Positions 13,499 through 36,953 of a stretch of 64,000 nt of DNA are shown here, in pieces. The position numbers and the translations under genes are program-made. Source of the DNA: an uncultured Oscillospiraceae bacterium (lineage in GTDB: Bacteria; Bacillota; Clostridia; Oscillospirales; Oscillospiraceae). Each line of letters opens with the position of its first letter. Position 1 is the stretch's first letter. The notes beneath the pieces were generated by a model. It was given only the letters and a program-made list of their open reading frames with translations. It was not told the origin of the DNA and searched no databases. The stretch covers positions 1 to 64,000 of the forward strand of contig CANRHH010000003.1 in the NCBI GenBank assembly GCA_947630375.1, given 5' to 3'.

Positions 13499-13782
13499 AT
13501 GCACGGGAAGGTAGAGATCTGCGGCGTGAACACGGCGAGTCTGCCGGTTTTGAAGGGCAGCGAGACCCGGCAGCTGCTGGAGCAGGCCCGGCAGGGGGAC
13601 GCGGCGGCCCGGGAGAAGCTGATCGCCGGGAATCTGCGGCTGGTGCTGTCGGTGGTGCAGAAGTTTGCCGGCCGGGGCGAGAGCATGGACGACCTGTTCC
13701 AGGTGGGCGTCATCGGCCTCATTAAGGCGGTGGACTGCTTTGATCTGAACCAAAATGTCCAGTTTTCCACCTACGGCGTTCC
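13499..13782 (+). CDS. sigG: Sporulation sigma factor G, 5' part (codons 1-94), interrupted
   Basis: The frame starts MHGKVEICGVNTASLPVL, the N-terminus that distinguishes sigma-G from other sporulation sigma factors, and continues with region 2 (NLRLVLSVVQKFAGRGESMDDLFQVG, here split: NLRLVLSVVQKF and MDDLFQVGVIGL). It stops being sigma-like after FSTYGVP, where the mobile element begins. Read on into the element it would add about 62 unrelated residues before a stop. Joined to the distant 3' part at 36461 it gives a 258-residue sigma-G, close to the 260 of Bacillus subtilis. A GGGAG ribosome site precedes the start. Sigma-G drives late forespore genes. Confidence 0.9.
13777..13782. other. 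attL core of the sigG element
   Basis: CGTTCC is the only sequence shared in register by both junctions (the other copy is 36455-36460). Left of it lies sigG, right of it element DNA beginning AACGGTTAACGGATGG. Confidence 0.8.
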
Positions 13783-13823
13783 AACGGTTAACGGATGGAG
13801 AAAAACGAGAGGAGCCTTTCTCC

Positions 13824-14378
13824 ATGACACGCAAACAGGCGCTCGACCGCGCTGTACAGGCATTAGCTGCCACCGGGCAGAACGAAGAAGCCATCCGGGT
13901 CTTACATATCCTATCCGACGAGCTGCCGCTGAACCGCTGGACAGAGGCGGCGATCCGGGACTCCGTTGAGCAGTTTATCCTCGACAATGGGCGGGCGCCC
14001 ACGCGCACGGACTTCAAGAAAAAGAGCCTGCCGCCCCACTCTGTCATCAAGCGCCGCTTCGGGCAGACCCTGCAGGAGTGGCTGGATGAGAATTATCCCA
14101 CCGAAAGGCCCAGCGAGGACGAGCGGCACGCGGAGGCGACAGAGGCTTTCGTGAGGGAATACCTCCGCATCCAGCCGGTCAGCGCCGAGGACTACAACGC
14201 CCGGCGGGCGCACCCCTCCATGGGTTGGTCCGCCATCGCCCGCTATAACCACACCCGCCGCTGGCGCATCCTGCTGGAGAAGCTTAATCTGCCGGTTTAC
14301 AGCAGCCGGTCTGTGCCGGACGCCAAGCCGCAGCTCAAGGTGAATATTATCCTGGACACAGACTTTGGAGATAGTTGA
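13824..14378 (+). CDS. Protein with helix-turn-helix repeats next to attL
   Basis: The 184-residue protein starts at MTRKQALDRA with GAGAGGAG nine bases before. Two similar units, NGRAPTRTDFKKKSLPP...FGQTLQEWLDE and the later YNARRAHPSMGWSAIARYN, resemble the repeats found with homing endonucleases, which bind DNA. No nuclease motif is visible. Being the gene nearest to attL, it would lie just across attP from the recombinase in a circular element, which makes it a positional candidate for a recombination directionality factor. That role is inference only. Confidence 0.55.
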   Translation: MTRKQALDRAVQALAATGQNEEAIRVLHILSDELPLNRWTEAAIRDSVEQFILDNGRAPTRTDFKKKSLPPHSVIKRRFGQTLQEWLDENYPTERPSEDERHAEATEAFVREYLRIQPVSAEDYNARRAHPSMGWSAIARYNHTRRWRILLEKLNLPVYSSRSVPDAKPQLKVNIILDTDFGDS

Positions 14379-14395
14379 ACAGAGCCGCAAATTTT

Positions 14396-14596
14396 TAACG
14401 CAAAAATTTGCGTTAAAAATTTTAACTCTAACGCATTTATTGCGTTAAAATAATGCGTTAAATGCGTTACGGAACGTCTTAGAGCATTGGAAAGAACTCA
14501 ACGAGCCAGGTTTTGAGCCCCACGAATTCGGGTATTTAGAAATCAAGCAGGCTCTAACGCAAATCTAACGCGTTAAAATGCGTTGGATCTGCGTTA
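14396..14596. repeat. Array of TAACGCA heptamers, left block
   Basis: Ten copies of TAACGCA, or one-base variants, on either strand: 14396, 14409, 14429, 14441, 14454, 14463, 14555, 14566, 14579 and 14590. The first two form a palindrome with 14-bp arms (14391-14420). There is no gene in this block. Confidence 0.85.
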
Positions 14597-14647
14597 AATA
14601 TGTGTTGGCCGAAGCAATATGAAATACGGACACTTCATGTGATATAA

Positions 14648-14729
14648 TTCGGAAGTATATCAATTTTGAATCGATATATTTCCGAAAAATAACGATATCC
14701 TTCCGAAACTCTGTGACATCCTTCCGAAA
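14648..14729. repeat. Three iterons at 21-bp spacing plus one inverted copy
   Basis: GATATATTTCCGAAA (14673), GATATCCTTCCGAAA (14694) and GACATCCTTCCGAAA (14715) recur at exactly 21 bases, two helical turns. A copy on the other strand (TTCGGAAGTATATC, 14648) completes the set. This is the arrangement expected for cooperative binding by a protein. Confidence 0.8.
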
Positions 14730-14761
14730 GAAGTGTTCCACTGGACTAAAGGAGCAGCCGG

Positions 14762-14814
14762 GCGTAAACATTTTTAACGCAATTTTTTGCGTTAAAAATG
14801 TTTACGCTAACGCA
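14762..14814. repeat. 21-bp perfect inverted repeat with TAACGCA motifs before the AlbA_2 gene
   Basis: Arms 14762-14782 and 14787-14807 are perfect complements around TTTT and each carries one TAACGCA. A third copy follows at 14808. The repeat ends 34 bases before the gene start, where an operator would lie. Confidence 0.8.
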
Positions 14815-14848
14815 AAGTTGTGTTAGAATTGTGTTGGAGGTGTTAATA

Positions 14849-16501
14849 GTGTCCAGATCAATACCAAGTCAGGAAACGCTCACAGTTGAATTTAAGAGCG
14901 ACCTGAAAAAATATAACGACAGCAATCTTTTTGAAGATGTTGTCGCATTTGCCAACACGGAAGGCGGAGATCTGTATTTAGGCGTTGAAGATAACGGGAC
15001 GATAACCGGCGTTCATCCCGAACACGCAAATCCTGTTACGCTTGGGGCCTATATCGCGAATAACACCGTCCCGCCTATTTCCACCCGCTGTGAAATAATA
15101 GAAGATGAGAAACCAGTGTTAAGAATAGCCGTTGCGAAATCCTACGGCGGGATCGCGGCCACCCGCTCCGGGAAGATCCTGCGGCGGAGAATGAAAATCG
15201 ACGGTACACCGGAAAACGTCCCCATGTATCCCACGGAAATGGCAACGAGACTGTCGGACCTCCGATTGCTGGACTATTCAACGGTACTTGTCTTGGAGGG
15301 CTCCCCGGCGGATATTGACCCTCTGGAGCTTGAAAGACTGCGAAAGATCATCCTCGCTTACGACGGCGATAAAGCACTTTTGGAACTGAGCAACGAGGAG
15401 TTGCTGCTGGCCCTTGGATTTACCAGAGAACAAAACGGCGTTGTATATCCAACTGTCGCGGGAATTCTGATGGTCGGGAAGGTCCCCAGCATCGAGCGAT
15501 TTGTCCCCACCGCTGCGTCATCGTTTCAAGCGCTGGAAGGTACCAGCGTTCGGGTCAATGAAGATTATATGCTCCCCGTGTTGGCCGCCATAGAAAAAAT
15601 CATTGGCCATTTGGAAGTCTGGAACCCGGAGCGGGAGATCGAGATGGGGCTGTTCCGAATGGCAGCGCCGGAGTTTGACAAACGGGCGATACGCGAGGCT
15701 GTCGTAAACGCTTTCTGCCACCGCGACTATTCTATTATGGGGCGCGTTCGCGTTGCCGTGGCGGACGAGGGCCTTACGATCGCGAATCCGGGCGGATTTA
15801 TTGAAGGCGTTACCGTTAAAACTTTGCTGACTGCGGAGCCGCACGGCCGGAATCAACTGCTGGCGGACAGCCTGAAACGGGTCGGTCTGGCTGAAAAAAC
15901 GGGGCGCGGTATCGACAGGATATACGAAGGCTCCCTGATCTACGGGAGACAACTGCCGGATTACACAAACTCCACGCCGAAAACCGTGTCTTTGTTTATC
16001 CCGCGCAGCCGGCCCGACATTCAGTTAGCGCGGATCATTTCCAATGAGCAAAACCGGCTGGGCCGGCCGCTTCCAATCAACACTTTGCTGGTCCTGAACA
16101 CGTTGAAGGAACTCCCCCGCAGCGGCATGAAGCAAATAGCGGAGGCGGCCAATCTCTCAGAAGCGGTCGTTAAAGCCGTTCTCGACAAAGCCATTGAAAC
16201 CGGCCTCGTGGAAGCCTATGGAGCTGGGCGTGGCCGGAATTATATGCTGTCGCACACGCTCTATCAGGACAAGGCACAAAAAATAGGTTACGTCCGCCAA
16301 AAGGACATAGATGAGGCGCGGTATCAGGAAATGATCGTCAACATGGCGAGAAATGCTGATTATATTGCCCGCGCGGACGTTATGAACTTGCTCCATGTCA
16401 ACGCGGGGAAAGCGTATAGTCTGATAAAAGACCTGGTAAATCAGGGCATCCTGTTGCCGGTCAACAAAGGCAGATACGCAAAATACAAACTGAATATTTA
16501 A
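14849..16501 (+). CDS. AlbA_2-domain ATP-binding transcriptional regulator-like protein
   Basis: A 550-residue protein starting at GTG 14849, with GGAGG nine bases before. The N-terminal domain (TVEFKSDLKKYNDSNLFEDVVAFANTEGG broken by variation, then LYLGVEDNGTITG) is the Schlafen-like AlbA_2 domain. A GHKL-like ATP-binding domain follows (AIREAVVNAFCHRDY, IANPGGF, GRGIDRI), then two winged-helix segments (GMKQIAEAANLSEAVV and ADVMNLLHVNAGKAYSLI). Relatives are called regulators or RNA-binding proteins, and some sit in defence islands. It is isolated between arrays of TAACGCA on both sides, which suggests it binds them, but this is inference. Confidence 0.8.
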   Translation: MSRSIPSQETLTVEFKSDLKKYNDSNLFEDVVAFANTEGGDLYLGVEDNGTITGVHPEHANPVTLGAYIANNTVPPISTRCEIIEDEKPVLRIAVAKSYGGIAATRSGKILRRRMKIDGTPENVPMYPTEMATRLSDLRLLDYSTVLVLEGSPADIDPLELERLRKIILAYDGDKALLELSNEELLLALGFTREQNGVVYPTVAGILMVGKVPSIERFVPTAASSFQALEGTSVRVNEDYMLPVLAAIEKIIGHLEVWNPEREIEMGLFRMAAPEFDKRAIREAVVNAFCHRDYSIMGRVRVAVADEGLTIANPGGFIEGVTVKTLLTAEPHGRNQLLADSLKRVGLAEKTGRGIDRIYEGSLIYGRQLPDYTNSTPKTVSLFIPRSRPDIQLARIISNEQNRLGRPLPINTLLVLNTLKELPRSGMKQIAEAANLSEAVVKAVLDKAIETGLVEAYGAGRGRNYMLSHTLYQDKAQKIGYVRQKDIDEARYQEMIVNMARNADYIARADVMNLLHVNAGKAYSLIKDLVNQGILLPVNKGRYAKYKLNI

Positions 16502-16819: not shown

Positions 16820-18028
16820 TTATTGATTAGTTTCTGTGATTTTTTGTATTGCAAGAAACAGTTCATCAACAGTTTGAAACCGTTCTTTTCGGTTAGGATT
16901 TGTTCCCTTATACCAGAATTGTTTTATTTCGCCATCTTTTTGCTTGTTGATATTTGTTTTCCCCGTTAATATAAAATAGCACAGCCGTGTTAAGGCATAA
17001 GTTTCATGACACATTTCATATTTTCCAAATCCAACATGAATCAAATCAGGATCATTTAATGATCCTTTTAATTCTGTCTGCAAACTTGTTAAAGTGCTTT
17101 CCGGCGTCTTTACTAAGCCAAAGTCACCCACTTTAATAACTTCCACATCATCATAATGTTTGATGAATATGTTGGTTAAACTAATATCTCTATGTAATAA
17201 TCCTTTGCTATGAATATATTTTAGTCCCTGGCAAATCTGACGAATATATCCCTTCCGGGCAGCAAGGGTAAGTTTTGTATTATTCTTTAGAATAAACCTA
17301 TATATGTTTTCATCCATACTTTCCATCGTGTATTCTCTTTCAGATTCGTTGAAAGAATATACTTCAACTATGTATGGTGAGTGCAACGATTTTAAAACAT
17401 CAAATTCTTGCCTGAATCTGGCTAATTCTTTTTCATTCAAATCACGCTTTGCCCGTTTAAGCACCACAGGAATCTGGTAATTTGGATCTGTGTATCTGAA
17501 AACGGTTGCATAAGAACCCTCGCCAATTGCTTGTAAACTTGTGTAAATGTTTTGCTTATCCTGTGGCAAAGCGATACCTGTCTCTAATTCAAAGATAGGT
17601 TTCAATTCTTCGATCATAATCGGAGCAAAGCCCTCTGGAATATTACTTCCTCCACTCTTAGCAACAAATCTTCTGCAAATCCGTATGGTATCATCATAAT
17701 TTCTATTGCAGAATCTAAAAGCATATGCAGTAGATTTCAATTTGCTTCTTAACTGATCTATATCATTAATTAAACTTAAAAAATACCTGCTATCCTGCGC
17801 ATGAAAATAGCCTCCATTATATTGAACGGTTCCGTCCTCATCATATTCAATTCTTATATCTTGATTTATGACATTAAACCAACGATTTAATTGGGTATGA
17901 AAAGAAGCCAGCATTTTTCTTAAATATTCATTGGAAATAAAACTATATAATTCATATATATCCTCGAGAAAATTAATATCTTGTTCTGAAGATACTCGTT
18001 TTAAAAAAGCATCAATTTGCGTCGCCAA
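16820..18028 (-). CDS. Hanks-type serine/threonine protein kinase
   Basis: A 402-residue cytoplasmic protein with a TTG start, chosen because AAGGAGG lies seven bases before it. Residues 1-160 are a helical domain I do not recognise. The kinase domain follows with the glycine loop IGEGSYATVF (168-177), the ATP-binding lysine K191, HRDISLTN (279-286) and DFG (302-304), so it should be active. The usual APE segment is not obvious. There is no transmembrane or PASTA segment. It is the last gene on the strand of the restriction-modification operon, 113 bases after a small gene. Kinases accompany methyltransferases in Pgl and BREX type 2 defence, which suggests but does not prove a defence role. 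Confidence 0.85.
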   Translation of the reverse strand: MATQIDAFLKRVSSEQDINFLEDIYELYSFISNEYLRKMLASFHTQLNRWFNVINQDIRIEYDEDGTVQYNGGYFHAQDSRYFLSLINDIDQLRSKLKSTAYAFRFCNRNYDDTIRICRRFVAKSGGSNIPEGFAPIMIEELKPIFELETGIALPQDKQNIYTSLQAIGEGSYATVFRYTDPNYQIPVVLKRAKRDLNEKELARFRQEFDVLKSLHSPYIVEVYSFNESEREYTMESMDENIYRFILKNNTKLTLAARKGYIRQICQGLKYIHSKGLLHRDISLTNIFIKHYDDVEVIKVGDFGLVKTPESTLTSLQTELKGSLNDPDLIHVGFGKYEMCHETYALTRLCYFILTGKTNINKQKDGEIKQFWYKGTNPNRKERFQTVDELFLAIQKITETNQ

Positions 18029-19045: not shown

Positions 19046-22000
19046 TCAATGAACCACATACTCCATTGGCCTTATCATTTTTTCAATCATCTGAATTTCT
19101 TCATTAGAGCAGTTGTAGCGTAAATATAACTCCTCATCTGTCCATGCTCTTGTATAGTCCAGGTATGGCACAAAACGAAAATTGTCTTTTGAAATTGCCA
19201 TGGATGTATATGTCTCATGCAGAAGAAAGCGCGGGAATTTTAGGGTCATGTATTTTGCAAAGTTTTCTGCTTCTGATAAGGTATCAAAGCAGGAGAGCAT
19301 GAGATAAGTATCTGTGAAAACTACACCCGGTCCGAAAACATGAACAGTTGTAATTGCCCGATAGCCAGTATTTATATCTACGCCAACTTCACCATTCCGT
19401 GGAACGCTTCGGCCAATAACGACCTTATACTTGTTAATAAACTCTTGCCCTTTAATCACTTTATCATTTTCGATATATGCCAATGCAAGCTGATTTCCTT
19501 TTTGGCTGCAAGCTAAAACCAATTGATGAGCCTCGTCCTGTTTTTCTTGTCCATGCTCATTAGTTGTAATTCCAAACACATTTCTGGGATAGACATACTG
19601 CTCCATCTTCTGATCGTCACTTGCAATTATCCGCTGCAATAAGTTTATCGACCCATTATTACGAATAAAAATATTAAATTCATTTAGCGCTCTGCGCTTT
19701 GAAACTCTCTTTCCTCCTTGAGCAGAAATAACCTCACAAGTACCTTCGTAGTCAATATCCCACAGAAAATAGTTTACACCGCCAGCGATATCAGCTCCCT
19801 TGAAACACTCAGCGCTGTCTGGGAAATCAACTATTTTTCTTATACGGGAATCGGATAACATCTCCGCCCGAAATTCATCCAATCCTTTGCCACCAACGAA
19901 CCACCGAGATGGCGTAATCATGGAAATGTAATGAGGCTGCATTTCCTTTGATTGGTTTACAAACAACTGATAAACAGGGCTGGAACTATTTCTATTGCCT
20001 CCATCCATCAGCTGATATGGCGGATTGCCCACTACGGCATCAAATTTCAAACGCTCACCCTCTTTCTTCCATGTCTCCGGATTGGTCAGCTTCCGCGCCA
20101 GGCGCTGCTTGTCCTCCATACGGTCAAGCAAATGGGGAATATAAATCGCATTGACCTCCGCGCCGGTGTAGCCCGCCAGCGTGCGCTTTGTAATGGCTAC
20201 GGCCATCGTGGTCTGGCACAGGACAAACAGATGGTCGCGAAGCGCCCGCTGCCACCAGACTTGCGCTTCCTCCAAGGTCATCTGCTCCTCGTCCTTCGGA
20301 AGCATCATGCGGTAAATGCTGTACGCCACATACAGCGGATAGAGGCCGGATTTGGAGTTCATCTCCAGAATACGGACCTTGTCGTTCAAAAATAGGTCGC
20401 TTGTGACCTCGCCCTGCTCGATCAGGCGCGGCACCTCCAGCAGTCCATCCTGCGCCGGGTAGCCCTCTTTATAGAAGTTGTAGCCGCCGATGGTATCGCC
20501 CATGTGCATATTCACCACGCGCCACGGGGTCAAGACGGTCTCTTTCGCGGGATTTTTGAAGTAGGTGAAGATCTCGGCGATCTTCATCACGCGGCGGGTG
20601 GGCATCAGCTCGTCCGCGGCCTTTGCCATGCGGCGGATACGCATCCCCGCGCCCTCGATCACATCCTCGTCGTAAAAGACCAGCAGCTTCAGGAAGAGGT
20701 TTTTGTCCACCTCCTTCGGCATGAACTCCTGCCAGGAGGCTGCGTCCACCTTATCCACAAATTCCGCCAGCCGGATGGACTCGTCAAAATCGGCGGCGGT
20801 GCCGAAGATCAGCAACGGAAGGCGAATGGAGACATTGCGCAGCAGGTCAAAAAGGCTCTGCTGCTGTTTCTTCATCGCCTTTTCCTTGTTCAGAGCCGCC
20901 TGCTCCTCCGGGGTCCGCTCCCGCTTGGGCTTGCGTTTGGCGTCCTGGGCTTTTTTGTATTCCTCCTGCGACAGTCCCTGCCGGTTCACATCCACCGCAG
21001 TCTGCTTTTTCGCCTGCTTCTGCGGGGTCAGCCGCTTCTTTAGAAGCTCCACCAGGTTCAGCTTCTCTTTGTCCATCACGATCCCGGCGTCGGCCTTGTA
21101 AATACTGTCGTCATCAAAGCCGCTCTTGATGGCGGAATCGACCGTGATCTTTTTGAGCTGCCGCATCATCTTCGGCACGTCGTAAGGCTCCATGCCGGTC
21201 TCAGCCTCGGCCAGCACCGGGCAGAAGTTCAGAAATTCACCCAGCGCCACCCGGCCCGCATCGTCCGTTCCCACAGCGGATCTTTTCAGCTGGTGGACAG
21301 CTGACAGCACCTTCAGCGCCCGGTCCGGGGCAAAGTCAAAGGCATAGCAGACCATCTTCTGCTTGCCGTCGATACTCCCGGCAGACTGGACGCGGAAAAT
21401 CGTCTGCATATATCCCGCCGCGCCGGTGCTGGAGGAGCCGGACAGGAGCATCACGCCCGTCCACTCCTTGACGGTGACGCCGGTGGTGAGCTTGCCGCAA
21501 GAGAGGGTGATAGTGCGGTCGTGGTTCTGGATGGCCTCCCGTACTTCCGCCAGAGCGTCATCGTAGGGTTTTTCCACATCTCCTTCACCGGCCACGTTGA
21601 CCACCTCATAGCCCTGAAAACCGGGATGCTTTTTCAGCATGGCGCTGAAGGCCCGCGCCTCTTTCACGCCGGGCAAGATCCAGAACGTATGGCGGAACAT
21701 ATCCCGATACGCAGGGGTAGAGAAGGGATAGTTGCTGTCGGGGCTGTCGGCGGAGATCAGGCTGAGGAACGCCCACACATCCCCCGCATGGACGAAATCG
21801 CCCACTTCCACGCCGGAGGGCAGCGTCTGGAAATCCCGCGTTGGGTCGCCGGTCCAGGTGCGGAAGAACTCCCGGAAATTGAAAGCGATGTTTTCGTCCT
21901 CATAGCGGTAGGACCCTGCCAGCTTGTTCCGCAGGTCAAAGGTGCAGATCCGCAACTCCGGCAGATCCGCATAGGGGTTGTGGTCGCCGGGATGCTGCTT

Positions 22001-23113: not shown

Positions 23114-24123
23114 GGTCTGCCTCCTTTCATCATGGATAAAAAGGTCTGGCTGCATTCAGAACGCCAGTCCATAATCCTGCAATAGACGCCGGTGTGGCGG
23201 CGGATATCCCCAGTGGCGCAGCCGGGGCATTGCGTGGAGCCGTCCTCGCACAATCCATCATTGTCAAACAGAGAAAACTGCTGGCTTTCCACCGGCCTGC
23301 AGCTCCCTGGGACCACGCATTTCAGTCCATCCATCTGCCAGATGTTCCACGAAATGATATGGGCAATCTTTCTCAGGAGTGGGACATCGGGCATCTGCCG
23401 GAACCGCTCACAGTAATACTCTATATAGGAGTACAACAGATTTTCCCGTGCCAAGAGGAGACTGTCTCCCTGATACTCAAATCCGTAGATGCTTTCAAAA
23501 GCTCTCTGCGCCCATATTAACCAGTCCTCGGGAGTGCCTGTATTCTCTCTTACGATGCGCATTTTGCGGTCAAGAAGCCCGATCCGACGCACAAGGGGGA
23601 TCTTTTCCCCTGTCACCGTATCATAGCGGCTGACAAGATAGGGAGCCTCCCCGCAGGTTATTTCAAGCCTCTGCGCGTCAACATAGGCTTTCCAGTCTTT
23701 TTCACATCCATCAAAGGAGATAGGACCGGCAGTGACTTCCCAGCTATCCGCGCTTTCAGTATTAAAGACGTTCTCCCGCCCGAACCACTGCTGGTCCACC
23801 AGATTGTTCTGCTTGTTGCAGATCCAGGAGGGCGTAAACACCTCCGCCTTGTCTCTCGTCCTGCCGATACGGGCGGACTGGGTCTTTGTGATGCGGGGCT
23901 GGATCAACGCCGCATAGTTTCCCGTGACAAGCTCCGGCGTGATCTCACAAAACTCTCCAAATTCCGGGCCGTAGGAAACGTAGTCTGTTGTCGCCCACAG
24001 AATGTTTTTTCCCGTTGTGCGGTCGCGGAGCAGGATGTTCAACAGCTCTCCGTCCAAAGAACGGACAGAGTCCTCCAATATGTCAATACCCTGCGCTAAG
24101 TTGGTTGGGGATTGAGACATCAT
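23110..24123 (-). CDS. Restriction-modification partner subunit (type called subunit M)
   Basis: A 337-residue protein starting at MMSQSPTNL with GGAGGAGGATG before it. The segments LRDRTTGKNILWATTDY, KAEVFTPSWICNKQNN, ITCGEAPYLVSRYD and IISWNIWQMDG are typical of a family annotated as restriction endonuclease subunit M, encoded directly before helicase-methyltransferase fusions. It contains FTPSWI but no complete catalytic NPPY, so catalysis probably rests with the partner. The stop overlaps the next start as ATGA, implying coupled translation. The N-terminal extension available to 24303 has no family character. Confidence 0.8.
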   Translation of the reverse strand: MMSQSPTNLAQGIDILEDSVRSLDGELLNILLRDRTTGKNILWATTDYVSYGPEFGEFCEITPELVTGNYAALIQPRITKTQSARIGRTRDKAEVFTPSWICNKQNNLVDQQWFGRENVFNTESADSWEVTAGPISFDGCEKDWKAYVDAQRLEITCGEAPYLVSRYDTVTGEKIPLVRRIGLLDRKMRIVRENTGTPEDWLIWAQRAFESIYGFEYQGDSLLLARENLLYSYIEYYCERFRQMPDVPLLRKIAHIISWNIWQMDGLKCVVPGSCRPVESQQFSLFDNDGLCEDGSTQCPGCATGDIRRHTGVYCRIMDWRSECSQTFLSMMKGGRP

Positions 24124-24159
24124 ATTTTCGCATCCTCCTCCGCTGCATAGTCTATGACA

Positions 24160-24188
24160 ATTATACTTGAAATCAGCCCTACAATCAA
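24160..24188 (-). promoter_or_regulatory. Promoter of the restriction-modification operon
   Basis: On the minus strand TTGATT, 17 bases, TATAAT, 37 bases before the start of the first gene. Confidence 0.65.
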
Positions 24189-24268
24189 GCGCTGGCCAAA
24201 AATTAGGAGATAAAGGGTGAAAAAAGAAATAAGCTGTCGCAATTCTCCGACAGTTTATTTTGCACCTA

Positions 24269-24297
24269 TTGCACACAAATTCGGAACGGTGTATAAT
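24269..24297 (+). promoter_or_regulatory. Promoter facing right before two small genes
   Basis: TTGCAC, 17 bases, TATAAT, diverging from the restriction operon promoter. A GGAGGGTG ribosome site follows at 24308. Confidence 0.65.
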
Positions 24298-24320
24298 AAC
24301 CATAAAGGAGGGTGAAATGT

Positions 24321-28600: not shown

Positions 28601-29652
28601 CTTGTTTTAAAATACTGGACCGTGTTGCCGGTCTCCTGTATATCGTCACACCATATCAGCAGATAAGGCGTGTAGTCATTTCGCAGGTGGTACGCAGCCT
28701 GCAAAGCAAGCGTAGTTTTACCTTGACCACTTGACGCCTTTATGACGGTAACTTCAAAATTGTTGATTGATTTTTCAATCTCCGCTTCCAATTCCGGACG
28801 ATGAATCGGAAGTCCGCTTGCTATATCCGTCGGTGACGCTTTTTTCCCTTCGTAAAAACCGAGGTCAGGATTTGTGCTTGGAACGGAATAATTCAGCCTT
28901 CTGATCCAGCGGTGAGCCGGATTCTGAGGGCCCTTGCTGATATCGTCTTTAACTGCAAGGATTCTTTTATCTATTTCCGCCTTTGTAATATAAGCACGTT
29001 TCTCCATCTTATCAAGGCAAAACACTTTAAGACTGTTTGCAAACAAAGATACATTGTCTGTTGTAATGTCGTATATTTTGACCAGCGCCTTCTCAATTCC
29101 TTCTTCCAAAGAGCTTTTTTCAACATGTTCAAATGATAATTTTGACATAAAATCATCAAAATCATACGCTGACCAGTTCCAATCGGGACAGTCGGACTTG
29201 ATTTTCTCAATCACTCCCTGCCAATGCGAACAGGAGGCGCAATCTAAATTGGATTGGAACAATTTTCTCATATGCCCGTCCGCAACGGGAAAATCATATA
29301 CCAGTTTAAATTGCCTGTGCGGATCCAACAAATACGCTTCCAAAAAGTTTGTAAGGATAGTGGGTAAAAAACTTGCATTCTGTCTATTGACAGAGTATTT
29401 CAATTGTATGTGCAAGATATCATGACCGCTTTCCGCATAATGGATTTCATCTATATCTTCAATGCCTTCAAGCCGAAAAGAAGTCTTTGCATCTGCTGAC
29501 AGAAGAATCAAATAACAAGAATAAAGAAATTGATATGAATACCCTCTAAGAGCGACCTGTCCTCCATCGCGAGAAGCACTCAGTTCGTGGATCGAATTTT
29601 TGACTGACACCGTCTTCTTTGTTTTCTTCTTTCCGCTCTTTCTTTTACCCAT
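25699..29652 (-). CDS. Avs-like defence protein: Cap4-type nuclease, STAND ATPase, long sensor
   Basis: A 1317-residue protein. The N-terminal RDGGQVALRGYSYQFLYS, the acidic EGIEDID (62-68) and IQLK (82-85) fit the Cap4/DUF4297 PD-(D/E)XK-like dsDNA nuclease. A STAND ATPase follows with Walker A ASSGQGKT (306-313), Walker B VLIIIDNLDA (about 358-367) and ITSRE (391-395). Residues from about 560 on are a long helical region with no recognised repeat, the place of the phage-protein sensor in antiviral STAND proteins. This order (nuclease, STAND, sensor) is that of Avs systems, where target binding causes tetramers that cut DNA. Subfamily cannot be fixed without a search. It starts with a lysine-rich tail MGKRKSGKKK. 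Confidence 0.82.
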   Translation of the reverse strand: MGKRKSGKKKTKKTVSVKNSIHELSASRDGGQVALRGYSYQFLYSCYLILLSADAKTSFRLEGIEDIDEIHYAESGHDILHIQLKYSVNRQNASFLPTILTNFLEAYLLDPHRQFKLVYDFPVADGHMRKLFQSNLDCASCSHWQGVIEKIKSDCPDWNWSAYDFDDFMSKLSFEHVEKSSLEEGIEKALVKIYDITTDNVSLFANSLKVFCLDKMEKRAYITKAEIDKRILAVKDDISKGPQNPAHRWIRRLNYSVPSTNPDLGFYEGKKASPTDIASGLPIHRPELEAEIEKSINNFEVTVIKASSGQGKTTLALQAAYHLRNDYTPYLLIWCDDIQETGNTVQYFKTRIQLGEKVLIIIDNLDAHFKNWTDLVQQMQFELADHYRVLITSRETDWYNYSGDISNIRSIHIIKPVLTENEAVAIFNMFKAANRLHPSITRWQNAWSRIADRQLLIEYVYLLTHGEMLAERISAQMSEIGQSHAGKAKFEILRKVCFADACGIRLSVRKLLDSLEEPTDEDCGELLKSMQDEFLVHIDADGGYIEGLHPIRSRHVVDRLHEFLPVDDTALAVIAVAEDADMAVFFSHLPEFNVTRDEFSARAVDTLWHDEDLSICLAAIQGLFSGSVMQYYFAQKDKFDDANRHGGLHIIATEVCPFACFPEFNVSVDTLDNLRENMPENKNIQYLCNLRDNIPACNLQETYVYSFSRKLYEKLLEIKFADIRDIKSYAAIAEWLYDIDPTFNLSVNFSLEDLWTNAENFALDSISSLMYCSFCGSREKYMHFVEENLETILIYIKHRIDSQKLYLEPERKAIHTEYILRLRDIKKANNESVSRLKVICKILPIFDTYCADAIMPKLNMLSAHQIPNDSHKEMPIRNIVIMFHQNLTSLWLKTIMSNYESGTVAEWIEYWLCVRKLICRLADKCCSVMHKLLAGRPLGELGTEIDELRSELTQQIVREVRYPREDRPFQAKAMLPEGLGKIKSEFFHSMDNFSRQFPEFLRKDSENQRLALINIKIANSSLKNMQQFFYYICHNTAYQKVHEELCTTEQQKINSLLINCNYYMNHSASKYFNKYQVTAWNEANSKRELETVEEGLAPLCADFSVHFPKTTYSMGLLRCYPIIADGLDATSGDDLAKLFLDSISFADSPFEYMVVLFSDKPGRVEPSALRLPRQFFRDVKAESESKDENQFQNLSAPFPENVTEQMLDCFPQKYELSVKRDPAPENSQIGDVAEELWVYSKLNELLTAPEDKGFLSTSLNQVRANVSATIETLEGSMPTEHIHRLKDECKAVFSGQLFDNDNLNKFVYGCMAQEAST

Positions 29653-30593: not shown

Positions 30594-31077
30594 CTCTCTC
30601 CCCCTCGTTCTCACTTCAAAAACTGAATATCCGGCAGCTAAATAACATCAGCAGAAGAACGAGCGATGCGGAGGGTACGCCAAGACCACCTGTGCGGGAC
30701 AGAAAGAGAAACCGCATAAAGTGAACAGCAAAAAGGTGCAAAGCGGTTCACCCCATCCAAAAACAGCTTTGGCAAGCTGTCTCGCCATGACTTATCTGCC
30801 TGCAATGATACCCCTGTCCAGCCACAGCCCTTCACAATATGAAGGATCACGCAATGGGGGCAGCTCGGAGAGATCCTCGGAGGGGTGAGATTCCCGGAGC
30901 GCGGTGCCAGCCGCGGTTTAGCCTGCCGCCCAAGCCTGGGGAAGTAGTGTCGAATACGGGCATAAGCAATATAGATACTACTCCCACAAATTTTGGGAGC
31001 TGTTTCTTTTGGGAGGTGACTGTCATGGAAAAAGCCTGTTGAACAGATCAGAAAAATACAATTCAGGAGGTGATCAT

Positions 31078-32139
31078 TTGATCCAAGATATAATCGAAAC
31101 CATAAGCGCAAGAAAACTGCTTGACATGAAACTACCGCCCACACGGTTCGTGGTGCAGGGACTGCTGCCACAGGGACTGCACGTCTTTGCCGGGCCGCCG
31201 AAGATCGGCAAGAGCTGGCTGCTGCTCCAGTTGGCTCTGGCCGTGGCCTCCGGCAAACCGCTCTGGGGTCTGGAAACAGAACAGGGCTCTGTCCTCTCCC
31301 TCTGCCTGGAGGACAGTCGCTCCCGTCTCCAGCAGAGACTCTCCAGCCTCACGGACGATCCGCCGGAGCAGCTCTACCTGGCGACCCTCTCTCACACTCT
31401 GAGCGACGGGCTCTGCGAACAGCTGGAGGATTTTCTGCAAGAGCACGACGACACGAATCTGATCATCATCGATACGCTCCAGATGATCCGTGGCGGCGGC
31501 AGCGGAGACAGCAACCAGTACGCCAGCGACTATCAGGACGTGAGCCGTCTCAAGTCTATCGCGGACGAGCACGACATCGCCATCGTCCTTGTCCACTATC
31601 TGCGCAAGCGGGCAGCGGACGATCCCCACGTCACCATCTCCGGCACGACAGGTCTGGTGGGCGCGGCCGATGGCAGCTACGTTCTGCGGCGGGAGCACAT
31701 CGGTGACCGGGAGCTGAAGCTCTACGTCAGGGGCCGGGATGTGGAGGAGAGCATCCTGACTCTGGCGCGGGACAAGGAGTTGAACGAGTGGAGCCTGGTG
31801 AGCTGCGACACGGCCATAGGCGACGCGCTGAAAAAGGAACCGGCGCTGCTGAAGCTGGTGGAGTATCTGAAAACGGTAAACAGTTTCCACGGGACGGCTT
31901 CCCAGCTGACTGAAACTCTCGGCGTGGAGATGCAGCCGAATGTGCTCTCACGGAAGCTGGGGAAGTACCGTCAGGAGCTGCTGAATGTGGGCGTCAGCTT
32001 CCACAGCTCACGCACAGGGCAGCAGAGATTTCTCTCTCTGACATACCGTGACTATGACGCAATGACGATCAGCTACCTCGGGGGAGCGGAATCGTCACAG
32101 AGTCCGGAAAGCGTTGAAAACACTGGAGAAATCGAATGA
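31078..32139 (+). CDS. RepA-like AAA ATPase (hexameric helicase family)
   Basis: A 353-residue protein starting at TTG 31078, since AGGAGGTG lies six bases before; no ATG fits as well. The RecA-type core has Walker A GPPKIGKS (39-46), Walker B NLIIIDTLQ and a later VLVHYLRKR segment with the SGTTGLVGAADGSYVL sensor, as in plasmid RepA helicases. The C-terminus has a winged-helix-like LTETLGVEMQPNVLSRKLG. In mobilizable elements such proteins support replication of the circular form. A five-codon frame with a good ribosome site (31024-31041) precedes it and may be a leader. Confidence 0.82.
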   Translation: MIQDIIETISARKLLDMKLPPTRFVVQGLLPQGLHVFAGPPKIGKSWLLLQLALAVASGKPLWGLETEQGSVLSLCLEDSRSRLQQRLSSLTDDPPEQLYLATLSHTLSDGLCEQLEDFLQEHDDTNLIIIDTLQMIRGGGSGDSNQYASDYQDVSRLKSIADEHDIAIVLVHYLRKRAADDPHVTISGTTGLVGAADGSYVLRREHIGDRELKLYVRGRDVEESILTLARDKELNEWSLVSCDTAIGDALKKEPALLKLVEYLKTVNSFHGTASQLTETLGVEMQPNVLSRKLGKYRQELLNVGVSFHSSRTGQQRFLSLTYRDYDAMTISYLGGAESSQSPESVENTGEIE

Positions 32140-32722
32140 CGGTTAAAAAAGAGCTGCCGGTTAATCGTCACTTCGTCAGAAGGTCAGCGAATGGTTCGCA
32201 TAGGCGCGAAGCGCCCATGCTCCATGATTCGCTGTCCTCCTTCCTCTCCAAATCGAACCCGCTTGTACCCCTTGGGTACTGCGCTGGGCTTCGATTTGGT
32301 ATGCGGGAAATGTTTCCCCGCATAGGGCCGCACAAGGCGCTGTGTCCGCTCCTGCCGGTGCCCTGGGGACGTGCTCCGGGAGCAGACCATCAGCGAAACA
32401 AAGCCACCGTAAGCGCCCAAGAGCCATCCGAAGCCAAGCAAGGAGGTCCGCTCCTCGCATCCCGCCAAAGCCCAGCGAAGCGGGTTTGGCGGGAAAAGGA
32501 GGAAGCATGGAACGAATGAGCTTTCGGCCTCTGGACGGAAGCGAATGAGTGTAATCGCTTCCGACGTAGGCAAGCAGAGCGTCTGTCCGACTTCGTCGGT
32601 CGCCACATTTCGCCGGGGAACCCGCTCCCCCGGCAAAAGGGCAGAAGCCCAAACCCACTTCTTCGTCGGTGCAAATGATGTGGCAGAGAAAAAACAAAAT
32701 CACTTTTAGCAAAGGAGGAAAC
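32140..32722 (+). other. Gene-free region before mobC, candidate oriT
   Basis: No gene is visible in 580 bases. Inverted repeats stand out: CCAAATCGAA/TTCGATTTGG (32248-32299) enclosing GTACCC/GGGTAC (32265-32279), and CGGAAGCGA/TCGCTTCCG (32536-32563). The position directly before mobC and the relaxase is where oriT of such elements lies. No nick site can be named from sequence alone. Confidence 0.45.
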
Positions 32723-33043
32723 ATGAAAACCACAAACAAGGATAAGCGGATCACGATACGTCTCACGCCGGAGCAGTACGAAAGCATCTGCTCTCGAGCA
32801 AAGACTGCCATGATGTCACCCAGCGCATATATCCGAGCGGCAGCTATGCGGCACAAGGTCTGTGTGGTGCCGGGCCTGAAAGAGATGGTCCATGAGATGA
32901 AAGGCATAGGCCGCAACCTCAATCAGCTCACCATGCTGGCCAACGCCGGAACCATCCATGAGGTCAACCTGAAGGAAATGGACAGGCGGCTGGACCACGT
33001 CTACATTCGGCTCAGCGAGATCGCGTCCATGGAAAGCAGGTAG
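32723..33043 (+). CDS. MobC-family mobilization protein
   Basis: The 106-residue protein starts MKTTNKDKRITIRLTPEQYE after AAAGGAGG. The ribbon-helix-helix start (ITIRLTPEQYESICSRA) and the GIGRNLNQLTMLAN segment define the MobC accessory family, which binds oriT and helps the relaxase. It ends three bases before the relaxase start, so the two are co-translated. Confidence 0.9.
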   Translation: MKTTNKDKRITIRLTPEQYESICSRAKTAMMSPSAYIRAAAMRHKVCVVPGLKEMVHEMKGIGRNLNQLTMLANAGTIHEVNLKEMDRRLDHVYIRLSEIASMESR

Positions 33044-33045
33044 CT

Positions 33046-34353
33046 ATGGCGACCGTCAACTACATTAAGTACAGCTCTCAGAGCCGGGCCGTGCTCGGCA
33101 GAGTGGCCGCGTATGTGGCTCAGGAGAAAAAGACTGTGGACGCACAAGGAGAAAAGCTGGTGAGCGGACAGAACTGCTCCCCGCAGTTTGCTCTCCGTGA
33201 ATTTGTGGCGACGCGGGAGGCGCACCGAAAGAACAGCCCCGTCTGGTTCTACCACTACACCCAGTCCTTCCATCCGAAGGAAAACATCACCCCGCAGCAG
33301 GCTCATACCCTGGCGAAGGAGTTCGCGGCCAGAGCGTGGCCGGAAAGCGAGGTGCTCATCACAACGCACTGCGACGCGGAACACATCCACTCTCATTTTC
33401 TGGTGAACGCCGTCTGCTACGAGTCCGGGAAGATGCTCCGGCAAGGTCCCAACACCCTCGAGACGCTGCGGCAGCTCAGCGACGAGCTGTGCGTGGAACA
33501 CAAGCTCTCTGTCCTGCCTCCTAAGCGCAGGGAGCAGAGGGGCAGCATGAGCTCCAGGGAATACCGTTCGGCAGAGAAGGGCGAGAGCTGGAAGTTCCGT
33601 CTGATGAACGCCATCGATGAATGTATGCTCTACGCGGCGAGCCGGGAAGAGTTCATCCGGCTGATGGAGAGCGAGGGCTATGGGGTACGCTGGACGGAGA
33701 ACAGGAAAAACATCACCTACACCACGCCGGGCGGCATGAAGGCCAGAGACTGCCGCCTGCACGAAAGAAAATATTTGAAGGAGGTTATGGAAGATGAGTT
33801 CAGGATCAGAGCAGAGCTCCTTGCTGGATCAGTTCCGGAGCCGCAACGGAGCGGCCACACAAGAACAGGTCGTGATGCACGCCGTAGCGGTCCAATGGTC
33901 GGAGGATACGGCGGAGCTAATGAACCAGCTGCTGAATATCACCGAGAGTCTGCTGGCGTCAGTCAGCCGGATAGAGACAGAGCTTGGGACGCTGAACGTG
34001 AATACACGGCTGGCGGAGATACAGCAGATGCTTCTGAAGCTGGAGAAACGGACGGAAGCTCCGCCCGCACCGGCTGGGAGAAAGAGAGAGCCATATTCCT
34101 GGCGATGGCACTGGAGTCTGCCAAGGCTTCACTTCTCCATGGGACTGTTGTGGCTCCTACCGATTGGGATAGCCTTGTTCGCTCTGTGGTCCAGCTGGGG
34201 AGATCTGTGGAACGCGCTGAGGACCCTGCTCCCGTGATAGTGACAGGCCATACAGACCGCCGCCAACGGGAGAAAGAACGGGAAAAGCGGCTGGCCCTCG
34301 GCCACAAGGTGGATGACCATGAGGACAGCCCGAATTGGCAGCAAACAATGTGA
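33046..34353 (+). CDS. MobP-type relaxase
   Basis: A 435-residue relaxase that nicks oriT and pilots the strand. The three-histidine motif is visible in HCDAEHIHSH (His108, 113, 115 and 117), and tyrosines near the N-terminus (NYIKYSS, YVAQ) are candidates for the nucleophile. The C-terminal LALGHKVDDHEDSPNWQQTM also recurs in relaxases of gut clostridial elements. Residues from about 250 to 397 are encoded by DNA that also holds another gene in a different frame (33794-34237). Confidence 0.9.
   Translation: MATVNYIKYSSQSRAVLGRVAAYVAQEKKTVDAQGEKLVSGQNCSPQFALREFVATREAHRKNSPVWFYHYTQSFHPKENITPQQAHTLAKEFAARAWPESEVLITTHCDAEHIHSHFLVNAVCYESGKMLRQGPNTLETLRQLSDELCVEHKLSVLPPKRREQRGSMSSREYRSAEKGESWKFRLMNAIDECMLYAASREEFIRLMESEGYGVRWTENRKNITYTTPGGMKARDCRLHERKYLKEVMEDEFRIRAELLAGSVPEPQRSGHTRTGRDARRSGPMVGGYGGANEPAAEYHRESAGVSQPDRDRAWDAEREYTAGGDTADASEAGETDGSSARTGWEKERAIFLAMALESAKASLLHGTVVAPTDWDSLVRSVVQLGRSVERAEDPAPVIVTGHTDRRQREKEREKRLALGHKVDDHEDSPNWQQTM
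33794..34237 (+). CDS. Gene nested in the relaxase gene in another frame: coiled-coil membrane protein
   Basis: A 147-residue frame entirely inside the relaxase gene, read one frame over. AGGAGG lies eight bases before the ATG. The product has a coherent plan: a polar start, a helical stretch TAELMNQLLNITESLLASVSRIETELG, followed by IQQMLLKLEKR (quoted in parts), a proline-rich linker and one C-terminal membrane segment LLWLLPIGIALFALWSSW. That is unlike a chance frame. Similar overlapping genes occur in related mobilization regions as far as I recall. Function is unknown; a role at the membrane during transfer is a guess. Confidence 0.65.
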   Translation: MSSGSEQSSLLDQFRSRNGAATQEQVVMHAVAVQWSEDTAELMNQLLNITESLLASVSRIETELGTLNVNTRLAEIQQMLLKLEKRTEAPPAPAGRKREPYSWRWHWSLPRLHFSMGLLWLLPIGIALFALWSSWGDLWNALRTLLP

Positions 34354-34730: not shown

Positions 34731-34777
34731 CGCTGTTCGTATGTTTCACGGTTCGTATAAGAAAAATAAGGAAACTG

Positions 34778-34806
34778 TTGATAATGGAGAAAAGATGTGA
34801 TATACT
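34778..34806 (+). promoter_or_regulatory. Sigma-A promoter of the large serine recombinase
   Basis: TTGATA, 17 bases, TATACT. It lies inside the longest possible reading frame, so it also shows that translation starts downstream at 34832. No forespore or mother-cell promoter sequence is seen here. Confidence 0.7.
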
Positions 34807-34831
34807 GCTGAAAAAGAAGGCGGTGAAGGAA

Positions 34832-36406
34832 ATGAAAAGGACCGAGAGGACCTATCATCTGAAAAACATTCTCGATATGCGGTCGAATATGAAGATTGTG
34901 ATCGACGACGCGGTCGAGGTCAGCGAGGACGGGGCCTATCTGGTCAACGTGGGCTATCTGCGCGTATCCACGGACCGGCAGGCGGACAAGGGCTTCGGCC
35001 TGGATATCCAGGAAGCCGATATCATCCGCTATTGCACGGCCAACGGCTATAAGAATCTGGTGCTGTATATCGATGACGGCTACACCGGCACCAACATGGA
35101 CCGGCCCGCTCTGCAGGCGATCATCCAGACGATACGGGACTTCAACGACGGAAAATCCCGCGTCCGGGTCAACGCCATGGTGGTGGCCAGGATCGACCGG
35201 CTGGGCAGGTCGCTGCTGGGGACGCTGCAGTTTATTCAGGATTACATCGTGTGCGCCAAGGACAGCAAGAACAGCCTGGTCAACCGGAACCGGGAGGACA
35301 TCAACTTCGTGTCCGTGGCGGAGAACTACTGCCGCATAGACAGGGACAATCCCCAGGGAAAATTCCTGCTGATGCTGTTTGCGACGCTGGCCGAATTTGA
35401 CCGCGACCAGATCGTGGAGAAGCTCAGCCGGGGCCGTATAGAGCGGGTGGCCTCCGGCAAGTGGATGGGCGGCGGGAACACGCCCTATGGCTACCGTTAC
35501 GACCGGGAGAGCTCGTCCCTGGTCGTCGTCCCGGAGGAGGCGGAGGTGGTCAAAGAGATATTCCGCCTGTACATCGAGGAGAAGCTGAGCCCCCAGAAGA
35601 TCGCGGAGCGCTTCGGCTTCAGCGGCGATAAGGCCATTACGCAGATCCTACGGCGAAAGTCTCTGACCGGCTGCATCGTCTACAAGGGAGAGGAATATCC
35701 GGGAAACCATGAGGCGATCATCCCGCTGGACGTCTGGGAGCAGGCCCAGGAGGAGCTGGAGCGGCGGAGCGTCCACCGCACGGCGTCCAACTATCTGCTG
35801 TCCGGGCTGCTCTATTGCGGTGAGTGCGGCGCGAAAATGCGCTATCAGCGCTGGGGGAATAACGGACATAAGCTGGTGTGCTATACTACCCAGGATTCCA
35901 GCAAAAGGCGGTTCGGGACGGCGGAGAGCTGCGACAGTGAGCGGTTTCGGAGCGAGGACGTGGAGCAGGCGGTCATCAGTGAGCTGTTCCGCCTGAGCTA
36001 CCTGGGCCTGGAGAACAACAAAAAGACGGCGGGGGCCATTGACCCGGTGGGAGTCTTGCAGAAAGAGCTGGCCGCCGAGCGCAGACGCCTGAGCCGCCTG
36101 TATGACTTTGAGGACGAGGACGAGCCGGACGATGTGCTGTTCGAGAAGATCCAGGAGGTCAAAAAGCGGATGCTGAGCCTGGAGGCCCAGATCCGCAACG
36201 AGGAGACCCAGGCCAGCATCGACAAGAAGCTGCGCCGGGCGAAAAAGCTCCTTCGGACCCTCCAGTCCACCTGGCCGCATATGAGCGACGCGGAGCGGCA
36301 GAGCGCCTGCCAGGAGCTGATAGACCGGGTCGTCATCTACAAGGACGGCACGATCGATGTCCACCTGAAGCTGAAAAGCTATCTGCAAAGTAACGAAAAT
36401 TCCTGA
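34832..36406 (+). CDS. Large serine recombinase (integrase/excisionase of the sigG element)
   Basis: The start at MKRTERTYHL gives 524 residues and is chosen from GGTGAAGGA before the ATG and the promoter position. The catalytic domain has GYLRVSTDRQ with nucleophile Ser46, followed by RIDRLGRSLLGTL. The recombinase domain (TPYGYRYDRESSSLVVVPEEAE, quoted as TPYGYRYD and VVVPEEAEVVKEIF), the zinc ribbon (LLYCGECGAKMRYQ with later cysteines) and a C-terminal coiled coil complete the family plan. It ends 54 bases before attR, the usual place for an integrase. It should join and separate the CGTTCC sites; excision would need a directionality factor. Confidence 0.93.
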   Translation: MKRTERTYHLKNILDMRSNMKIVIDDAVEVSEDGAYLVNVGYLRVSTDRQADKGFGLDIQEADIIRYCTANGYKNLVLYIDDGYTGTNMDRPALQAIIQTIRDFNDGKSRVRVNAMVVARIDRLGRSLLGTLQFIQDYIVCAKDSKNSLVNRNREDINFVSVAENYCRIDRDNPQGKFLLMLFATLAEFDRDQIVEKLSRGRIERVASGKWMGGGNTPYGYRYDRESSSLVVVPEEAEVVKEIFRLYIEEKLSPQKIAERFGFSGDKAITQILRRKSLTGCIVYKGEEYPGNHEAIIPLDVWEQAQEELERRSVHRTASNYLLSGLLYCGECGAKMRYQRWGNNGHKLVCYTTQDSSKRRFGTAESCDSERFRSEDVEQAVISELFRLSYLGLENNKKTAGAIDPVGVLQKELAAERRRLSRLYDFEDEDEPDDVLFEKIQEVKKRMLSLEAQIRNEETQASIDKKLRRAKKLLRTLQSTWPHMSDAERQSACQELIDRVVIYKDGTIDVHLKLKSYLQSNENS

Positions 36407-36442
36407 AATTCCGAAATTTCAAGAACATTTTATATTATTACG

Positions 36443-36460
36443 CCATTCGGTAATCGTTCC
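36443..36460. other. attR core and left arm of attP
   Basis: CGTTCC (36455-36460) is the second copy of the core. The 16 bases before its CC (CCATTCGGTAATCGTT) and the 16 bases after the attL CC (13783-13798) are complementary at 13 of 16 positions, so the closed circle would have a symmetric attP centred on CC. Confidence 0.8.
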
Positions 36461-36953
36461 CATGATTGCCGGGGAGCTGCGGCGCTTTCTCCGGGACCAC
36501 AGCGCCCTGCGGGTCTCCCGCTCCATGCGGGATACGGCCTACCGGGTGCTCCAGGCCAAGGAAAAGCTCACCGCCGAGACCGGCCGGGAGCCGGACATGG
36601 AGACCATCGCCAAGACCCTGGACATTCCCCGCCAGGAGGTGGTCTTTGCCTTGGAGGCCATCTGCGACCCGGTCTCCCTCTATGAGCCGGTGTACAGCGA
36701 CGCGGGAGAGAGCGCCTGCGTCATGGACCAGATCGGCGACCCCCGCAACACCGACGAGCACTGGCTGGAGCAGATCGCCTTGGAGGAGGCCATGCGCCGC
36801 CTGACGGCCCGGGAAAAGCGCATCCTGTCCCTGCGCTTTTACGACGGCCACACCCAGATGGAGGTGGCCAAAGAGGTGGGCATCTCCCAGGCCCAGGTCT
36901 CCCGGCTGGAGAAAAACGCCATCCGGCAAATCAAGAAAAATATCAGCGCATGA
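36461..36953 (+). CDS. sigG: Sporulation sigma factor G, 3' part
   Basis: From MIAGELRRFLRDHSALRV on, this is the remainder of sigma-G: the end of region 2, region 3 (EPDMETIAKTL, CDPVSLYEPVYSD) and region 4 with its helix-turn-helix (TQMEVAKEVGISQAQVSRLEKN). It lacks its own promoter and ribosome site. The base at 36461 completes the proline codon begun at 13781-13782, so fusion at the core restores FSTYGVP-MIAGE without any change. It is followed directly by a terminator. Confidence 0.9.

Follow-up and report, generated by a model that had tools for sequence, protein, structure and literature searches.

In a 64,000-nucleotide stretch of contig CANRHH010000003.1 from an uncultured Oscillospiraceae bacterium, hereafter the window, the gene for sigma factor G (sigG) is interrupted by a 22,678-bp element (13783-36460), and recombining the flanking att sites in silico restores its open reading frame (ORF) exactly, the pattern that characterizes skin-type elements. 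Comparative sequence data show that the window is one case of a widespread system in which sigG is cut at a single codon in dozens of related Clostridia, with the intervening DNA mostly carrying its own recombinase. We lean, with moderate confidence, towards the interpretation that an element bearing a large serine recombinase (LSR) and a relaxase cuts sigG at the CC of its Pro95 codon, and that precise excision rebuilds the gene in spore-making cells.

Codons 1-94 of the window sigG lie at 13499-13780, followed by the CC of codon 95 at 13781-13782, and the rest of codon 95 through the stop is found at 36461-36953. The sequence CGTTCC stands at both junctions (13777-13782 and 36455-36460), and joining there yielded a stop-free 258-residue SigG ORF containing YGVPMI. 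These results confirm an earlier note on this DNA, which had described a split at codon 94 with a 22.7-kb insert and restoration of the gene by joining at CGTTCC. The identity of the gene was assigned by orthology, with intact copies in four members of the window's genus (G389, G301, G363 and G334) being 83-93% identical. Mis-assembly was considered and rejected because the identical junction recurs in many genomes with different inserts. The six shared bases prove little alone, and the palindromic pairing of the att arms about the CC appears to be the stronger evidence.

Sigma-G works in the forespore, and forespore DNA passes to the next generation, while sigK is a gene of the mother cell, which dies; the conflict raised in the earlier note, namely that interruption of a forespore gene affects the DNA of the spore itself, is a real one. 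A second intact sigG would have removed this conflict; none was found in the window's assembly (G000; 2,332,525 bases in 64 contigs, 95.91% complete), where the search returned the two halves only and a next match that is 33% identical and RpoD-like.

Recurrence, site and forms of the split

A SigG-like match at E up to 1e-40 was present in 360 of 400 family genomes. Among the 31 family genomes that we followed up for a partial, weak or missing SigG match, 22 contained a 3' half starting at about codon 89-95, with junctions that agree. Candidates rejected as split genes were cut by contig ends (G001, G107, G136 and G268), frameshifted (G139), intact (G361) or devoid of SigG (G109, G224 and G264). 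Within the window's genus, 28 of 61 genomes carry a full-length sigG and 14 carry a split gene with at least one junction read, and in genus g4 a split 3' half was observed in 10 of 11 genomes.

A profile built from ten LSRs that flank sigG was searched against GTDB species genomes; the best 80 of the 429 loci confirmed were retained, and 68 of these also contain a sigG half cut at this codon. Because the queries were chosen for flanking sigG and only the best 80 of 429 loci were kept, this proportion describes one LSR lineage and not all LSRs. The LSR ends no more than 300 bp from a sigG half at 58 of the 80 loci and lies nearer the 3' half in 44 of the 68, while at 12 of the 80 no sigG half was seen in the stretch just downstream of the LSR, the only part inspected. 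According to their record titles, the loci come from Oscillospiraceae (and 'Ruminococcaceae'), Lachnospiraceae, Defluviitaleaceae, Flavonifractor and Pseudoflavonifractor; goat, deer or buffalo gut samples appear in some titles, and the isolate codes of other records point to rumen, chicken and termite origins. The same split that the earlier note had proposed to look for in related genomes was thus found in both surveys.

The lineage extends to viral sequences. In IMG/VR, tblastn located a sigG half at four of 80 viral LSR loci (L266 and L272-L274, with L272 resembling L273), and a fifth case (L265), a 62.6-kb contig whose LSR is 60% identical, ends in attR and the first bases of the 3' half. 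Two further viral contigs of about 114 kb (L279 and L267) present the unintegrated order of LSR, palindromic attP and a gene of the MTRKQAL family, which we consider below as a candidate recombination directionality factor (RDF), and they presumably target sigG as well. Their attP centers are CC in one and GG in the other, which would account for the two insertion orientations.

We reconstructed attP from the attL and attR arms of 30 split sigG genes, 29 of them on distinct contigs because some loci are one contig under two names (L074/L248, L071/L230, L072/L250 and L073/L239). The attP arms are palindromic about the CC at a mean of 12.7 of 18 bases compared to 7.0 for attB, and arm identity reaches 0.70 in register versus 0.14-0.31 when the arms are slid by 1-3 bases. 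In the window the arms read CCATTCGGTAATCGTT-CC-AACGGTTAACGGATGG and are palindromic at 14 of 18 bases. Since the attL and attR arms form inverted repeats around it, the CC of the Pro95 codon is likely the crossover dinucleotide. One genome (G445) is suggestive of both site states: its 5'-half contig continues into a sigG without an insert and shares exactly 99 bp with the 3'-half contig. The latter starts at CGTTCC, where empty and occupied sites diverge, as if the two coexisted, although a mixture of strains would give the same picture.

The arrangement of the halves varies. When both were on one GTDB locus (n=13), 11 pairs were direct and 2,556-14,707 bp apart and two were inverted and 3.7 kb apart; in G112, direct halves lie 25 kb apart. 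The smallest unit, 2.6 kb in a Defluviitaleaceae locus (L203), contains little besides the MTRKQAL gene, a 93-residue ORF and the LSR. The two inverted cases, P. phocaeensis An507 (L258) and the SI.A6 bin (L246), have neighbors in common with Flavonifractor, named by eye as an HD protein, a MocR regulator and a 361-residue protein, but relative to Flavonifractor they carry the sigG 5' half and MocR on a segment of opposite orientation. Inverting the 3.7 kb in silico produced a 256-residue SigG in both; as the halves are inverted, inversion and not excision would rebuild sigG there, with no DNA lost. The earlier note had offered three ways out of the sporulation conflict (element-free spores, a circle that is kept and reinserts, or a carrier unable to sporulate) and had missed this fourth one.

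Both halves shared a contig in five of 25 named genomes searched whole. They are direct and 15-17 kb apart in G496, G497 and G511; direct and 170 kb apart in Lachnospiraceae C64_1 (L348/L349), where the gap is either an element of unusual size or a piece of chromosome enclosed between the halves; and inverted, 26 kb apart and with the same core in Hominifimenecus microfluidus CLA-AA-H215, where the LSR is on another contig and none was present in the 8-kb stretches read around each half.

Two further arrangements were observed. In Flavonifractor and its kin (L230, L231, L234, L224, L239 and L250), the sigG insert is 6.4 kb in all six and carries in each, as judged by eye, iron alcohol dehydrogenase-like and aldehyde:ferredoxin oxidoreductase-like genes, a metabolic and not a mobile cargo. 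In genus g4 (L085-L088 and L168-L171), a sample that includes no complete genome, the halves are on different, often long contigs, which possibly reflects a chromosome-scale inversion; by eye, in G003 and G173 the 3' half adjoins LSR, MATE and asparaginase genes and the 5' half adjoins BirA-BioY.

Age of the split and sporulation capacity of carriers

In Flavonifractor/Pseudoflavonifractor, trees of the flanking genes and of sigG place nine split species on one side of a branch (100/99) and three intact species on the other, and the LSR tree agrees in its deepest split, which parts the inverted pair from the remaining seven species (100/100). Across the 36 pairs of this nine-species clade, the median ratio of nonsynonymous to synonymous divergence (dN/dS, here a simple NG86 estimate made for this analysis) is 0.036 for the 5' half and 0.032 for the 3' half, at proportions of synonymous differences (pS) of 0.42 and 0.39, compared to 0.106 and 0.079 for flanking genes and 0.148 for the LSR. 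The halves contain no internal stops in the nine split species, and the three intact relatives gave dN/dS values of 0.037 and 0.132 over their 3 pairs. A ratio of about 0.03 on halves that have been split since the ancestor argues that the gene is not permanently broken; the split in this clade is old, has been kept by nine species and leaves a gene that is evidently used.

Among 26 split genomes, which include three (G232, G271 and G393) classed by partial SigG score and not by a read junction, SpoIVA is present in 23 and GPR in 22; the corresponding counts are 11 and 12 in 12 genomes with intact sigG and zero for both in six genomes without a SigG match. Spo0A was detected in the window's genome and in ten other sigG-bearing members of the genus and is absent from three without SigG, and the window's genome also has SpoIVA and GPR. 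Retention of SpoIVA and GPR in split genomes, together with a dN/dS of about 0.03, disfavors an inability of the carrier to sporulate as a general answer to the conflict. That answer may yet apply to the window's own organism, whose assembly yielded no sigF.

Several genus members (G109, G224 and G264 among them) have neither a SigG nor a SigF match, and in 12 of the 61 genus genomes, several of them incomplete, no match was better than an RpoD-like one. As the three SigG-less members tested also lack Spo0A, SpoIVA and GPR, sporulation appears to have been lost in part of the genus.

A candidate excision factor and competing explanations

Upstream of the window sigG we noted a promoter-like sequence, predicted by eye, which would be of forespore type by the sigma-F/G consensus. 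The sequence GGGAAATA(A/C)TA or a near form was seen by eye upstream of sigG in 42 listed genus members (12 split and 30 intact), the -35-like part being unclear in G452. In the window's orientation the MTRKQAL gene is the first gene behind this sequence. A first hidden Markov model of the family drifted, in-frame SigG fusions having drawn in sigG halves, and homologues were counted only when position or independent homology evidence agreed. On this basis they occur at an element end in 20 loci, and in 15 of these (the window, G004, G174, G414, G415, G426, G431, G443, G444, G451, G454, G455, G112, G385 and L203) the gene lies in sense behind the sigG 5' half. In every element with both ends in view the LSR is towards the opposite end, except in L221, where it is mid-element; no LSR was found on the stretches read of G385, G415 and G451. 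Furthermore, 27 of 120 listed MTRKQAL clusters (190 found) form one open frame with SigG(1-94), and therefore translation from sigG's own start would reach the MTRKQAL product in these clusters. The protein has a weak Pfam HNH_repeat match below the cut-off, and its predicted structure is all-helical at moderate confidence. Position and conservation make it a candidate RDF.

On the interpretation we favor, the LSR would have placed the 22,678-bp element at the CC of Pro95, and precise excision by the LSR would rebuild sigG in spore-making cells. The same LSR lineage occupies this codon on viral contigs, in islands with mobilization genes and as pared-down units across many Clostridia. Where the LSR adjoins the 3' half, as in the window, transcription from the sigG promoter would run across the 5' half and into the MTRKQAL gene, the product of which would act as the RDF; excision would thus be set off at the place and time of the first sigG transcription, in the forespore. 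Once RDF synthesis stops, the LSR alone may reintegrate a circle kept in the spore, or else the spore line may be cured and then reinfected by transfer, whereas in the inverted forms flipping of the segment would rebuild sigG and avoid loss altogether. A broader version, which we hold to be somewhat less likely than not, is that many gut Clostridia store sigG in pieces that recombination by one LSR lineage reassembles in each developing spore, either by excision and re-entry after germination or by reversible inversion. An LSR-last element would thereby sense the forespore by being sigG, whose promoter drives the excision factor, and reversible inversion would operate in Pseudoflavonifractor An507, in the related SI.A6 and, with the LSR located elsewhere, in Hominifimenecus microfluidus.

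A number of observations weigh against this interpretation. The MTRKQAL gene lies beside the 3' half, at attR, in 5 of the 20 loci (G190, G452, L221, L347 and C64_1), where the sigG promoter could not drive it, and was not detected in the Flavonifractor clade or in genus g4; the LSR is on the 5'-half side in 24 of the 68 loci. Each of these cases would need another trigger. A fold search with the moderate-confidence MTRKQAL model returned no match below E 4. At six Flavonifractor-type sites the attP arms are palindromic at 8-9 of 18 bases and attB at 7-9, and an attP pattern search revealed an assembled attP, as expected of an excised circle, in none of 102 genomes of the window's genus. Three genomes (G456, G458 and G501, the last being one of the 25 named genomes searched whole) show a full-length match besides the split one, reflecting either a second copy or contamination (listed as 4 and 8 for G456 and G458, both from genus g4). 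Two members of the Flavonifractor clade, BRZ_DE88 and BRZ_DS10, are placed differently in the LSR and flank trees, at modest support. Finally, sigF was not found in the window's assembly and is present in all five sigG-bearing relatives tested. Its conserved neighbors are valS and spoIIAB, and a DNA query including the valS end matched only the dapA side and 47 bases of the sigG 3' half in the window's genome; because valS is essential, an assembly gap is likelier than gene loss.

The window's own genus adds to these points. On the sigG tree the split or intact label requires at least eight changes, and the window groups with intact G389 and G301 (99/97). Some LSR pairs, in a comparison that leaves out G414, are closer than the sigG genes of their hosts (pS of 0.184 versus 0.399, 0.169 versus 0.381 and 0.239 versus 0.502). 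From these label changes and LSR distances, the element appears to move within the genus and the window insertion may be young. The dN/dS values of split and intact sigG are alike there (0.155 and 0.145), and selection in this genus is therefore silent on use of the gene while split.

High turnover and horizontal spread of this kind, as well as the relaxase on the element, would also fit a scenario in which sigG is merely a conserved attB, integrated carriers are spore-negative, and random excision without developmental control yields occasional spore formers, the split species heading towards loss of either sporulation or the element. The failure to find sigF in G000 and the genus members with only an RpoD-like match, consistent with loss of both sigG and sigF, point the same way. 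We consider this scenario unlikely, as it sits poorly with the strong constraint on halves split since the ancestor of nine species, with the retention of SpoIVA and GPR in most split genomes, and with the domesticated look of the 2.6-kb unit and the inverted forms, in which no transfer genes were seen between the halves.

A different trigger is conceivable, whereby excision occurs before septation or is driven from an element-internal promoter and the forespore receives an already joined sigG. The loci with the LSR on the 5'-half side or the MTRKQAL gene at attR would be accommodated in this way, and the C. difficile skin element combines a compartment-specific RDF with a constitutive LSR (PMC5025042); we nonetheless regard this trigger as very improbable, given that in 15 of the 20 loci, among them the window, no other gene stands between the sigG 5' half and the candidate RDF, and that 27 of its 120 listed clusters are fused to that half. 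Least credible of all is that the halves act in trans as two polypeptides, a split sigma factor with no DNA rearrangement: the 3' half does nearly always begin with ATG (Met96) in the sites read, and the halves are far apart in genus g4 and C64_1, but a Shine-Dalgarno-like 4-mer stands at the tested distance before only 2 of 46 3' halves (an indirect test that does not support independent translation), att arms precede the 3' half, and the cut falls inside sigma region 2.

Element content and relation to known systems

The element we propose to be excised from sigG has its own site-specific recombinase at one end, where an LSR with three domains above the Pfam cut-off (PF00239, PF07508 and PF13408) adjoins attR. 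It combines this integrase with a MobA/VirD2 relaxase and NikA/MobC, the pairing expected of an integrative mobilizable element, and a Pfam scan of ten element proteins, which left smaller ORFs and oriT unsearched, contained no conjugation-pore protein. The whole reads as an integrative mobilizable element with defense-like cargo.

Features of the interrupted sigG locus and of the element within it (window coordinates)
Feature	Position	Strand	Basis or remark
Forespore-type promoter-like sequence GTATC-N14-GGGAAATAATA upstream of sigG	13431..13460	+	Predicted, by eye
5' part of sigG (codons 1-94 and CC of codon 95)	13499..13782	+	Other 5' halves read stop at the identical codon
attL: shared core CGTTCC and element arm AACGGTTAACGGATGG	13777..13798	+	Arm pairs with the attR arm as an imperfect inverted repeat centered on CC
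Candidate RDF, 184 residues, MTRKQAL family, AGGAG upstream	13824..14378	+	First gene inside attL; RDF function putative
Schlafen/AlbA_2 - HATPase_c_4 regulator-like protein (cargo)	14798..16501	+	Pfam PF04326, PF13749
Ser/Thr protein kinase (cargo)	16820..18028	-	Pfam PF00069; PADLOC kinase models also match
Helicase and adenine methyltransferase, type IIG restriction-modification-like (cargo)	19046..23155	-	Pfam ResIII, Eco57I; PADLOC REase_MTase_IIG 8.1e-49
Type II DNA methyltransferase (cargo)	23110..24303	-	PADLOC MTase_II 2.6e-118; no Pfam match
nSTAND NTPase with LmuA-like N-terminus, defense-like (cargo)	25699..29652	-	Pfam PF25199; PADLOC LmuA 6.1e-12
RepA/DnaB-like AAA ATPase	31009..32139	+	Pfam AAA_25 4.8e-30
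NikA/MobC mobilization protein	32669..33043	+	Pfam PF21983, PF05713
MobA/VirD2 relaxase	33046..34353	+	Pfam PF03432 4.8e-32
LSR, 3' end towards attR	34778..36406	+	Pfam Resolvase, Recombinase, Zn_ribbon_recom; nearest kin at split sigG
attR: element arm GCCATTCGGTAATCGTT and core CC	36442..36460	+	Sequence and arm pairing
3' part of sigG (from the remainder of codon 95 through the stop)	36461..36953	+	Sequence and in silico joining

Elsewhere in the window, away from sigG, a second serine recombinase-like ORF of 254 residues (119-883, minus strand) has partial 30% identity to the element LSR. By eye, an insertion sequence transposase-like ORF lies at 2017-2601 (minus strand), and a 1,343-residue ORF at 37779-41810 (minus strand) fuses the carbamoyl-phosphate synthase large chain in frame to diaminopimelate epimerase.

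If the broader version given above is correct, no earlier case is known to us in which a sporulation gene undergoes programmed rearrangement in an inherited cell line. The system offers a testable instance of such rearrangement in the germ line of a bacterium. That the forespore sigma factor is interrupted recurrently and at a conserved site would mean either that inherited spore DNA is rearranged or that sporulation is under the control of mobile DNA. A split sigG could also cause gene surveys to miss sigG and to score carriers as non-spore-formers, and the LSRs form a family that shares a single core, inserts in two orientations and comes with a candidate RDF. We found no report of an element in sigG in the literature searched, which covers subscription journals and preprints thinly.

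Developmental excision by a serine recombinase is also known from cyanobacterial heterocysts, where XisF excises the fdxN element, and XisF is the best NCBIfam match of the window LSR; however, heterocysts are terminal cells, and the match reaches 107.6 bits against a cut-off of 375. The Listeria comK system, an active lysogeny or phage regulatory switch, resembles the proposed cycle in that excision restores the gene and the element can go back in without being lost, whereas comK is not a sporulation gene and re-entry of the sigG element after germination is our conjecture.

Among sporulation genes, the known elements to our knowledge sit in mother-cell genes, where DNA loss is harmless. The skin elements in sigK of B. 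subtilis and C. difficile are alike in that a sporulation sigma gene is cut by an LSR-bearing element whose removal restores it, and they differ in target site, RDF candidate and cargo. The skin-like interpretation of the earlier note is well supported by the LSR beside attR, the exact restoration and the failure to find a second sigG in the assembly; the window nevertheless belongs to a large family, and the exit by which the carrier cannot sporulate is disfavored in general. Because sigG acts in the forespore with its inherited DNA and not, as sigK does, in the dying mother cell, the window element is a variant and not a classical skin element.

In C. difficile, according to PMC5025042, the LSR is constitutive and its excision activity is confined by an RDF that the element encodes and that only one compartment makes; the sigG element has a candidate RDF, and by analogy its trigger would lie in the forespore. 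Interrupted sporulation genes named in PMC10747680, which uses the term active lysogeny, are sigK, spsM, spoVFB and gerE, to which that report adds yabG. As described in PMC10747680 and PMC5595907, SPbeta in spsM, vfbin in spoVFB, gin in gerE and yin in yabG share with the window element a precise insertion into a sporulation gene, a recombinase with an RDF or RDF candidate, and phage-like or non-phage cargo. None of these four lies in sigG, in contrast to a sigG site that is common to dozens of species from several families, with some of its forms invertible.

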